From Spirochaetota bacterium (GTDB taxonomy: Bacteria; Spirochaetota; GWB1-36-13; JAKPDD01): DNA of 64,000 bases. The DNA lies in contig JAKPDD010000023.1 of the NCBI GenBank assembly GCA_029552945.1, positions 248,001 through 312,000 on the forward strand, given 5' to 3'. Under the pieces are notes generated by a model. That model made no database searches and was not told where the DNA came from. It was given only the letters and a program-made list of their open reading frames with translations. Shown here in pieces: positions 423-30,309 of this stretch; within the stretch, counting starts at the first letter, position 1; each line of letters starts with the position of its first letter. Both the position numbers and the translations under genes were made by a program.

Positions 423-529
423 TTTTATCTCCCTATTATCAAGCTATAACTATTAATGTTATTAAATTTACTTTAAAAATTTTAAATATTTTTAGTTTTT
501 CTAACTATTTTAAGCAAGAGGGTATAAGG

Positions 530-26256: not shown

Positions 26257-27249
26257 ATGGCTAAAAATGTGGCTATTGTAGGTGCAACTGGTGCAGTAGG
26301 GCAGGAGATGATTAAAGTACTTGAAAAAAGAAATTTTCCTGTAAAAAATATTAAACTACTTGCTTCAAAAAGGTCAGCAGGTAAGGATCTTTTATTCAAA
26401 GGAGAGAAAGTTAAAGTAGAAGAGCTTACCACAACATCTTTTAAAGGTGTTGATATAGCTCTATTTAGTGCAGGAGGGGCTGTATCAAAAGATTTTGCCA
26501 AACATGTTATAGATGCTGGGGCAGTGATGATTGATAATTCAAGTGCTTTTAGGCTTGAAGAAGGTGTCCCTTTAGTTGTTCCTGAAGTAAACCCAGAAGA
26601 TGTAAAATGGCATAAAGGTATAATTTCTAATCCTAATTGTTCTACAATTATAATGGTTGTTGCAATAAATCCTATTTATAAATTGTCGCGAATAAAAAGA
26701 ATAGTTGCTTCTACATATCAGGCAGTATCGGGAGCTGGTGCTTCTGCTATGCAAGAATGTATTGACCAGACAAGAGACTTTTTAAATGGCAAAGAGATAA
26801 AACCAGTTAATTTTGCTCACCAGATAGCTTTTAATCTTATCCCTCATATTGATACATTTCAGGAAAACCTTTATACAAGAGAAGAGATGAAAATGGTATG
26901 GGAGACAAGAAAAATAATGCATGATGATCAAATAAAAGTTGCAGCAACAACAGTAAGAGTCCCTGTACTAAGGTCTCATTCTGAATCTCTTATGATTGAA
27001 ACTGAAAAGAAATTGAGTTTAGAACAGATAAAAGAAGCTATATTAAAAGCCCCAGGTGTTATTTTAGAAGATGAACCACAAAATAAAGTTTATCCTATGC
27101 CTTTTTTTAGGGCAGGCAAAGATGAAGTCTCTGTTGGTAGGATAAGATATGACCTTTCAAGTGAAACAGGTATAATGCTTTGGGTTGTTGGTGATCAATT
27201 GTTGAAAGGGGCAGCTCTAAATGCTGTTCAAATAGCAGAACTTTTATAA
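26257..27249 (+). CDS. asd: aspartate-semialdehyde dehydrogenase
   Basis: Reduces aspartyl phosphate to the semialdehyde, the branch point to lysine/diaminopimelate and threonine/methionine; dapB lies at 48897. The 330-residue product has the nucleotide loop VGATGAVGQEM, the catalytic cysteine in ISNPNCSTIIM (Cys128), the segment QAVSGAGASAMQE, and the catalytic His in VPVLRSHSESLMIE. AAGGAG precedes the ATG. A parS site begins 4 bases after the stop codon, followed by a strong terminator. Confidence 0.96.
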   Translation: MAKNVAIVGATGAVGQEMIKVLEKRNFPVKNIKLLASKRSAGKDLLFKGEKVKVEELTTTSFKGVDIALFSAGGAVSKDFAKHVIDAGAVMIDNSSAFRLEEGVPLVVPEVNPEDVKWHKGIISNPNCSTIIMVVAINPIYKLSRIKRIVASTYQAVSGAGASAMQECIDQTRDFLNGKEIKPVNFAHQIAFNLIPHIDTFQENLYTREEMKMVWETRKIMHDDQIKVAATTVRVPVLRSHSESLMIETEKKLSLEQIKEAILKAPGVILEDEPQNKVYPMPFFRAGKDEVSVGRIRYDLSSETGIMLWVVGDQLLKGAALNAVQIAELL

Positions 27250-27252
27250 TAC

Positions 27253-27268
27253 TGTTTCACGTGAAACA
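27253..27268. other. parS: parS centromere site (ParB binding)
   Basis: TGTTTCACGTGAAACA is a perfect 16-bp palindrome and fits the chromosomal ParB site consensus TGTTNCACGTGAAACA exactly. It lies between the asd stop and its terminator. A second identical copy is at 29833-29848. ParB nucleates on such sites and spreads to form the segregation complex, which also loads SMC. parA and parB are not in the window. Confidence 0.92.
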
Positions 27269-27273
27269 TTTTA

Positions 27274-27310
27274 TTTTGTCATAGGGGCCTCTCTATGACA
27301 AAATTTTTTA
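27274..27310 (+). terminator. rho-independent terminator after asd
   Basis: TTTTGTCATAG (27274-27284) pairs perfectly with CTATGACAAAA (27293-27303) around an 8-base loop, followed by six T. The stem is 11 bp. The A-rich left flank is short, so it works mainly for asd. Confidence 0.93.
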
Positions 27311-27375
27311 TTTTTAAAATTTTTAAGAAAAATTTCTTATATCTAAACAGATCTAAGCCTTACATAAGATTTTTT

Positions 27376-29790
27376 TCAGCACAATTGTATTTTTTGTGTA
27401 TGAAAGATAGCGAGTTCTTTTAAAACTTTTGAAGATGAAGCTATGGTTGTATTTTTAATGGTTGATGGGATAGAGTTTAAAAACTTTATTCCATAACTTT
27501 TTTTTATTACTCTTGGATCAAGTATTATAACAGTTCCTCTATCTTTAATACTCCTTATAAGCCTTCCAAAGCCCTGCTTAAACTTTATTATTGCTTCTGG
27601 CAGGGATATTGTTAAAAATGAGTTTTTACCTTCTTTCTCTGCTATTTCGTAGACTGCTTGTTGAATTGGGCTGTTCGGTGGTGAAAATGGGAGTTTTAAA
27701 ATTATAAGATTTCTTAATGATTCTCCTTTTATATCTATTCCCTCCCAAAAACTATCCACGCCTATTAACACACTGTTGTATTTTCTAAACTTTTCTATTA
27801 TTAAAGTTTTTGATTCTTCCTGTTGTACTAATATAGGATATTTTATATTTTCTCTTAGAAACTCTTTTAGTTTGTTAACTTGAAGAAAAGAGGTACAAAG
27901 TATCAAAGTACCGCCTTCTGTAATTTCAATAGCCTCTTTTATTAGGTATAATTGTTGTTCAGTAATATCTTCAGAATAATAAATGTCTTCAGGAATTAGT
28001 ATTTTTACCTGGCTATCATAGTTGAATACATGGGGTAATATTAATGTTTCAAAATCTATTTTTAGATCCTCTTTAAACTTAGAAAAATCATTTTCTATTG
28101 TTAATGTAGCTGAACAAAAAATAATAGTTTTTTCTTCATTGTTTAAACCAGATATGAGACTGAAAGGATCAATTGGGACTTTATAGATTGCAAAAAATGA
28201 TTTTATTTTGTCTATTTCAACCCATCCAACATAATCATCAGGTGTGCCTAAAAATAAAATCCTAAATAATTCTAGTCCTGCTAATAGATTTATCGCTGTA
28301 TTTTCTATCTGTTTTAGTAACAGGGGCCTTTTTTCTTCTATTGTTGCATCTTTATTTTTTATCTCTTTTATTGTTTTTATTATTTGATTTGAGATAAAAA
28401 GAACAGGTGATTCAATTTCTTCAAATAATGATTTTTCTATTATAGGGTCTTTTATTCTTATTTTGGTTTTTTCATTCTGAGCTTTTTCTGCTATTATATT
28501 ATATATACTGTTTAGTGCACTGGTTATTTTAGGTCTTGTTATTTTTATATTTTCTATAAGTTCATTTATAATCTCTTTTTCTTCTGTTATTTCTAAGAGC
28601 GTTTTTAATTTGCCTGATTTTTTTTCTCCTTCATAATAGAGATAATTTAATTTATTTTTTATTGTGTTTGATGTGATCGATTCTTCTAAAGCTAAATAAC
28701 TTACTTTTTTTAAGTTGTGAGCTTCATCAAATATTATATTGTTTGTTTTAGGAAGCAGGAAAGGCATCTCTTTTTCATCAAAAATAAGACTTAGTATTGT
28801 TAGTGAATGGTTTGATATTATTATATCTGAAGAGAATGCTTTTTGTTTTGCTATATTATAGAAACAGGATTGGAAATGTTTACATTTTTTGTAAAGACAT
28901 GTCTCTGGGCTTGAGTTTATGTCCTGATATACGCTTGAAACTATCTGAAATGGTAATTCTTCCAGATCACCATTCGATGTTTTTGCCCATTCTTCTATTT
29001 CACTGTATATATTTTTGTTATCAAACAGGCCCTCTTTTTCTTTTTTTGCTTCTTCAAGTTTATTTTTACATAGATAGTTATTCCTTCCTTTTATTATTGA
29101 ATAAGTAAATCTAAATGGTATACACTTTTCTAAAAATGCTAGGTCTTTTTCTAATAACTGATGTTGCAGGTTTTTTGTGTAAGTTGATATTATAACTTTT
29201 TCTCTATTTTTTACAGACCAGAAAATTGATGGAATAAGATATGCAAGAGACTTACCTGTACCTGTTGGAGCCTCTATTGCTATTTTTTTTGTATTATTAA
29301 AACATTCTATAACAGCCTCAGCCATTTTGATTTGAGAAGGTCTTTCTTTAAAGCTACTATCTATTTTAGATAAAATTCCATCTTTTTTAAAATAATTAAT
29401 TATTTCATCTTTATTTAATTTTTCTTTTTCTTTTCTGATTAAAGGATAGAAAAATATTATTCTTGCTTTTGTGACATTGTTGTCTATTATGACAGAACTT
29501 ATGCCCGCATAATTCATAAGACTTTCTGCAACTAGGAGATCAGAGTTACTCGGCGTAAGATTAGAGTCAGGATGATTATGGATAACCACATCACAGGCAT
29601 ATGCTTTTGTTAGAAATACTGGTGTTAACTCGAAGTTTCCAAAAGTTATAGCCTCTATTTTATCTATTTTTTGTTTGTTTTCGTCAAAATAGCCTGCAAA
29701 AAATACTTCAACACCTTTAGTTTCTTTTATAATATTTTTGAGGTACGAAATAGCATCTTCTGTAAATATTTCTTCTATCTCTTTTTCCAC
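27376..29790 (-). CDS. DinG-type DNA helicase with N-terminal JAMM/RadC-like domain
   Basis: An 804-residue fusion. Residues 1-125 form a JAB1/MPN domain with a complete JAMM metal site: Glu46 (upstream), HNHP (His71, His73), Ser81 and Asp84, spaced HxHx7SxxD as in active enzymes and RadC. From residue 150 it is a superfamily 2 XPD/DinG helicase: Walker A APTGTGKS (174-181), four cysteines for an iron-sulfur cluster (CKNKL, then CLYKKCKHFQSC), DEAH box (FDEAHNL), and late motifs IFCSATLTIEN, GVDSFWEGIDIKGE and GFGRLIRS. Start is GTG after AGGA. It is third in a unit with the tautomerase and membrane protein, and both parS sites flank it. Confidence 0.88.
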   Translation of the reverse strand: MEKEIEEIFTEDAISYLKNIIKETKGVEVFFAGYFDENKQKIDKIEAITFGNFELTPVFLTKAYACDVVIHNHPDSNLTPSNSDLLVAESLMNYAGISSVIIDNNVTKARIIFFYPLIRKEKEKLNKDEIINYFKKDGILSKIDSSFKERPSQIKMAEAVIECFNNTKKIAIEAPTGTGKSLAYLIPSIFWSVKNREKVIISTYTKNLQHQLLEKDLAFLEKCIPFRFTYSIIKGRNNYLCKNKLEEAKKEKEGLFDNKNIYSEIEEWAKTSNGDLEELPFQIVSSVYQDINSSPETCLYKKCKHFQSCFYNIAKQKAFSSDIIISNHSLTILSLIFDEKEMPFLLPKTNNIIFDEAHNLKKVSYLALEESITSNTIKNKLNYLYYEGEKKSGKLKTLLEITEEKEIINELIENIKITRPKITSALNSIYNIIAEKAQNEKTKIRIKDPIIEKSLFEEIESPVLFISNQIIKTIKEIKNKDATIEEKRPLLLKQIENTAINLLAGLELFRILFLGTPDDYVGWVEIDKIKSFFAIYKVPIDPFSLISGLNNEEKTIIFCSATLTIENDFSKFKEDLKIDFETLILPHVFNYDSQVKILIPEDIYYSEDITEQQLYLIKEAIEITEGGTLILCTSFLQVNKLKEFLRENIKYPILVQQEESKTLIIEKFRKYNSVLIGVDSFWEGIDIKGESLRNLIILKLPFSPPNSPIQQAVYEIAEKEGKNSFLTISLPEAIIKFKQGFGRLIRSIKDRGTVIILDPRVIKKSYGIKFLNSIPSTIKNTTIASSSKVLKELAIFHTQKIQLC

Positions 29791-29826
29791 TATAAAAGTC
29801 CTGGATTAAATTTGAATTAAAAAATT

Positions 29827-30309
29827 TTAATTTGTTTCACGTGAAACAAAAGACTTAATTGTTTTTAATAAAGCTTCAACTTCTTTTATCTCTGATCCCC
29901 TGAATATTGTATATTTTTTTTCGGGTTTTACCATTACCTCCATATCTATGCCCCTCACCAGGATTAACAGAAAACCAGATTCTCCATCTTTTATCCTATA
30001 ATCTATAATTTCTCTTGTTGGGAAAACTGTTTTTTTTGATAAAATAAATTTTTTTTCAATTAAAACAGTATCATCTTTTAAGTTTATCACTATCTTATAT
30101 TTGTGAAATATAAATATCGAACTTGATAAAATTATACATGAGGCAGCTATTACTATTACCCATCGTGTATCAGGGTTAGAAAAATAGATTATTGCAGCAA
30201 GACTTAAAATTATAAACAGAAAATAAAAATAACCCTTTTTATTTGTTTTTTCCTTTTCTATTTTTAAGATATAGTTATCTTTTTCAACTTTAGTTATATC
30301 AAAAGCCAT
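29827..30309 (-). CDS. two-helix membrane protein with PH-like C-terminal domain
   Basis: A 160-residue protein with two adjacent membrane helices (YFYFLFIILSLAAIIYF and WVIVIAASCIILSSSIFIF) followed by a beta-rich cytoplasmic domain (INLKDDTVLIEKKFILSKK, IIDYRIKDGESGFLLILV), the layout of bacterial PH-like/YcxB-type membrane proteins. No specific function. The last residues, FVSRETN, are encoded by the second parS site, so the end of this gene is shaped by a DNA-binding site. It lies 11 bases after the tautomerase gene and 36 before dinG. Confidence 0.65.
   Translation of the reverse strand: MAFDITKVEKDNYILKIEKEKTNKKGYFYFLFIILSLAAIIYFSNPDTRWVIVIAASCIILSSSIFIFHKYKIVINLKDDTVLIEKKFILSKKTVFPTREIIDYRIKDGESGFLLILVRGIDMEVMVKPEKKYTIFRGSEIKEVEALLKTIKSFVSRETN
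29833..29848. other. parS: parS centromere site, second copy, inside a gene end
   Basis: TGTTTCACGTGAAACA again, identical to the site at 27253-27268 and 2580 bases away. It lies within the last codons of the 29827-30309 membrane-protein gene. Surrounding bases differ between the two sites, so conservation is limited to the 16-bp ParB target. Confidence 0.92.

Follow-up and report, generated by a model that had tools for sequence, protein, structure and literature searches.

The window, that is, the whole stretch of 64,000 nucleotides that was analysed (C41:248001-312000), carries two short palindromes set among ordinary-looking genes, and the features relevant to them are the following.

423..529, no strand: AT-rich intergenic stretch on the candidate origin side, where genes turn from minus to plus; at the GC-skew minimum.
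26257..27249, plus strand: asd, aspartate-semialdehyde dehydrogenase (TIGR01296, 460.8 bits, over cut-off); neighbours site 1.
27253..27268, no strand: parS site 1, exact TGTTTCACGTGAAACA; intergenic, between the convergent asd and dinG-like genes; 29.0 kb from dnaA.
27273..27304, plus strand: hairpin resembling an intrinsic terminator; follows site 1 immediately, in the space between the convergent genes.
27376..29790, minus strand: DinG/YoaA-like helicase with an N-terminal RadC-like JAB domain (PF13307 and PF04002 over cut-off; NF053712/DinG below cut-off).
29827..30309, minus strand: open reading frame of a 160-aa gene, function without assignment; its 3' end holds site 2.
29833..29848, no strand: parS site 2, exact TGTTTCACGTGAAACA; 31.6 kb from dnaA; lies in the final codons (VSRET) of the 160-aa gene.

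The initial annotation had placed exact parS sites at 27253-27268 and 29833-29848, and both were recovered there. Each is identical to the 16-bp palindrome of chromosomal parS (TGTTNCACGTGAAACA), and they lie 2.58 kb apart, on either side of the helicase gene. Site 1 starts 3 bp past the stop codon of asd, and the hairpin that follows it had a z-score of -5.5, a value computed on an 86-nt stretch that includes the parS palindrome. Site 2 is spanned by the coding end of the 160-aa gene (FVSRETN and stop codon), the product of which gave no match in Pfam or NCBIfam. The helicase gene encodes a fusion of a RadC-like JAB domain, at the N-terminus, with a DinG/YoaA-like helicase. No plasmid or prophage signs were seen near the sites, and the neighbouring genes look like housekeeping genes.

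A genome-wide search, which had been proposed along with the original claim, showed that copies of the sequence are not scattered: sites 1 and 2, within the same 2.6 kb, were the only perfect copies of TGTTTCACGTGAAACA in the genome (1,869,830 bases, 50 contigs, 99.2% complete, a draft that could conceal another parS). Near-copies numbered none at one mismatch, one at two and 19 at three, while the reversed pattern, used as a control, gave six matches genome-wide at up to three mismatches. The sole two-mismatch copy (C50:44139) was without the CACGTG core, a hexamer that occurred only four times in the 320-kb contig, two of the four being the parS cores. Under Markov models trained on this contig (C41; orders 0 to 5), 1e-5 to 5e-4 perfect copies per genome would be expected, against the two that were found 2.6 kb apart. 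Chance is therefore statistically refuted as the source of the palindromes and is practically inconceivable, as the initial annotation had also judged. A third parS was considered at 27153-27168 (CCTTTCAAGTGAAACA), 100 bp from site 1, and was rejected, as it has three mismatches and a broken CACGTG core and lies inside the asd coding sequence; this stretch is probably a product of chance or a relic. When the flanks of sites 1 and 2 were compared beyond the 16 bp, no likeness was seen, and the possibility that one site is a recent duplicate of the other was rejected on account of these dissimilar flanks.

The gene for DnaA (TIGR00362, 473 bits) lies on the minus strand at C41:244876-246213 and ends 1.8 kb ahead of the window. 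Along the 320-kb contig, cumulative GC skew is lowest at C41 ~248.5 kb (window ~500), about 27-29 kb from the parS sites, with a second minimum, almost as deep, at C41 ~231 kb. A search for a cluster of DnaA boxes (four within 500 bp) returned none, with 123 near-matches, so that the origin is placed by dnaA and skew only, to some kilobases and not to a base. The origin side is fixed for this genome, and the earlier proposal that the window is origin-proximal holds. The same proposal had spoken of a parS cluster near oriC; the nearness to the origin stands, and the cluster amounts to just two sites. In other bacteria, one origin-near parS can be enough (PMC4368675, PMC7022226).

The initial annotation had also called for a search for parA and parB, and both were present. 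The ParB gene (C2:13472-14362, L054; TIGR00180, 203 bits, over cut-off) has gyrA on one side and an LptF/G-like permease gene on the other, both names being read from the sequence. Its product has the ParB_N CTPase, helix-turn-helix and C-terminal dimerisation domains over their Pfam cut-offs (PF02195, PF17762, PF23552), its best solved relatives are Spo0J/ParB proteins, and it keeps both the GERRFR CTP motif and LGKGL, a ParA-stimulating motif (PMC9712426). ParA (253 aa; C50:30585-31346, L023; AAA_31, 232 bits) is of the chromosomal type, with a deviant Walker A motif (KGGVGKTT) and without an N-terminal extension. An SMC gene was found over cut-off at C2:28290-30968.

The nucleoid occlusion protein Noc is a paralogue of ParB that acts at NBS, and the ParB found here scored 253 bits with the Noc model TIGR04285, below the cut-off of 315. 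Residues R173 and G201 (Caulobacter numbering) are kept in all parS-binding ParB proteins and altered in Noc (PMC7383237). Here, R157 and G185 align with these two, in an alignment for which the Caulobacter row was typed in (from the fifth residue it agrees with the chain of the solved structure) and its numbering offset of 10 residues was inferred from the RTAG quartet. The protein differs from Noc at both specificity-deciding positions, where it has Arg and Gly, and the palindromes are of the parS type and not NBS. Position 184 is Lys, as in Noc, at a position that varies among ParB proteins. Of the six parS contacts common to ParB and Noc (Q162, G170, K171, S172, N178, R204), five are kept; although conserved, the full set does not define the ParB family. 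The sixth differs: residue 145, which corresponds to the parS-contacting Gln162, is His, and the other ParB proteins compared have Gln.

All 41 genomes searched had FlaA (PF04620), as against none of 14 controls, and its presence supports the placement of this genome in the Spirochaetota. The pattern TGTTNCACGTGNAACA was found in 31 of the 41 phylum genomes, this one counted, and its reversed control had zero matches. Where parS and dnaA share a contig (20 genomes), they are 32 kb or less apart in 16, a count for which the one contig of G007 was taken to be circular. The exceptions are G025, G004, G019 and G030, and skew was sampled for the first three. In G025, parS lies at C1 ~800 kb, at or near the sampled skew minimum, and dnaA is 0.87 Mb off; in G004, where the skew is weak, parS at C1 ~3.42 Mb is likewise at or near the sampled minimum and dnaA is 1.36 Mb off; in G019, dnaA and parS are 276 kb apart and both fall in a broad skew minimum. 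Since parS in G025 and G004 follows the skew minimum and dnaA does not, dnaA marks the origin poorly in these two genomes, and parS may serve as a better marker in this phylum. The class has one other member, G001, and there 16 kb separate parS from dnaA. A conserved gene context of parS between the two was considered and rejected, the genes being different and closeness to dnaA alone being held in common. Three genomes of family f11 (G010, G022 and G033; L197, L198 and L199; estimated 99% complete) have parA near parB, and their ParB carries the Arg and Gly that specify parS, but TGTTNCACGTGNAACA was absent genome-wide, and no near-copy was present in the 15-19 kb around parB.

The comparison across genomes also bears on whether the palindromes could instead serve a local regulator as operators, controlling for instance the dinG-like gene or asd, with a coincidental match to parS. 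Both sites flank one gene (27376-29790), site 1 is intergenic, and operators are typically perfect palindromes, all of which would suit such a role. However, the sites are identical to the 16-bp parS consensus and near the origin, the ParB of this genome keeps the parS-specifying residues, and relatives carry the same sequence near dnaA in unrelated gene contexts, as in G001. The 3' coding end of a gene (site 2) and a position downstream of two convergent genes (site 1) are also poor places for operators, and a regulatory role of this kind is very unlikely.

In bacteria, parA and parB are nearly always side by side. In this genome (G000), parA (C50), parB (C2) and parS (C41) are on three different contigs. 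The usual, though not obligatory, single operon of parA and parB is absent, and because both genes lie inside their contigs, away from the ends, assembly does not account for the split. The genes are also not adjacent in G001 (parA at C99:1-723, L193; parB at C51:4783-5682, L175), where parA runs into a contig end and the separation is demonstrated from the parB side only. A search for the class returned these two genomes and no others. Outside it, parA adjoins parB in 34 of 34 decidable phylum genomes, comprising 28 from an adjacency survey and six judged from coordinates (G006, G011, G012, G017, G021 and G034); contig ends or missing matches made five further genomes undecidable. G000 and G001 share the permease gene that comes after parB, which suggests that a single relocation preceded their divergence, and the split looks ancestral to the class. 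Within the 50 contigs of the draft, which hide the true distances, arithmetic puts parB at least ~55 kb and parA at least ~69 kb from the nearest parS of G000, assuming that the following contig is joined at the right-hand end. Location of parS away from parAB is common in the phylum (for example, in G002, G015, G020 and G031).

A break-up of the operon could be read as decay of ParABS in the class, leaving the sites as relics that no longer work. That parA and parB are unlinked in both class members, that there are two sites only, and that one parS-contact residue of ParB has changed are all compatible with such decay. Both palindromes are nevertheless letter-perfect in an AT-rich genome that holds no half-decayed copies, and between the two families of the class ParA is 78% and ParB 57% identical, with motifs intact, so that loss of function appears highly improbable.

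Takacs et al. stated that spirochaetes outside the Borreliaceae have parA and parB in an operon (PMC9712426), and this class is an exception. The parAB operon of non-Borrelia spirochaetes is thus not universal, and ParABS can persist without linkage of its genes while the sites stay letter-perfect. The novelty is modest: it is the class-wide break-up of the operon with perfect parS retained, the sites themselves being ordinary. The initial annotation's remark that ParB loading in spirochaetes is little described needs qualification, as ChIP-seq has already located ParB loading in Borrelia (PMC9712426). The ParA/ParZ and ParB/SMC systems of Borrelia burgdorferi (Takacs et al. 2022, PMC9712426) offer a close parallel, a spirochaete that departs from the parAB operon and has parS near the origin. 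The two Borrelia genes, though opposed, lie together, whereas here they are far apart, and Borrelia ParB is without the ParA-stimulating motif, whereas here LGKGL is kept. Functional uncoupling of the Borrelia kind, with ParB-parS serving SMC loading only and ParA working with another adaptor, is considered unlikely here.

Compared with the chromosomal ParABS systems of Bacillus subtilis (Soj-Spo0J) and Caulobacter crescentus (ParA-ParB), the 16-bp parS is identical, its position is origin-proximal, the domain layout and specificity residues of ParB agree, and ParA and SMC are present. Unlike in those systems, parA and parB are without an operon and neither is near parS, there are two parS sites only, and ParB has His for Gln162. 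Counted against the parS interpretation are this substitution, the Lys at position 184 and the lack of linkage between parA, parB and parS. On the evidence computed, namely the sites, their uniqueness, their nearness to dnaA and the skew minimum, and ParB, ParA and SMC with the expected motifs, sites 1 and 2 are nonetheless judged, with high confidence, to be the chromosomal parS centromere of this spirochaete, at which ParB would load. They provide a parS set for a deep spirochaete class represented by two genomes.

How such a centromere would work is inferred from characterised ParABS systems (PMC7022226, PMC7333895), as regards ParB binding and spreading, segregation and SMC loading. By this analogy, ParB, encoded on another contig, would bind the two 16-bp palindromes, close with CTP into a sliding clamp and spread over the neighbouring DNA, marking the origin region. 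Two sites 2.6 kb apart would be expected to give one ParB domain over the helicase gene. ParA would then move the ParB-marked origins apart, and SMC would probably be loaded at the parS region.

A minor observation concerns the surroundings of the lone parA. Directly upstream of it in G000 (C50; L023 61-1362) is a gene for a 433-aa coiled-coil protein with no family assigned, and upstream of parA in G001 is a different open frame of 199 aa.
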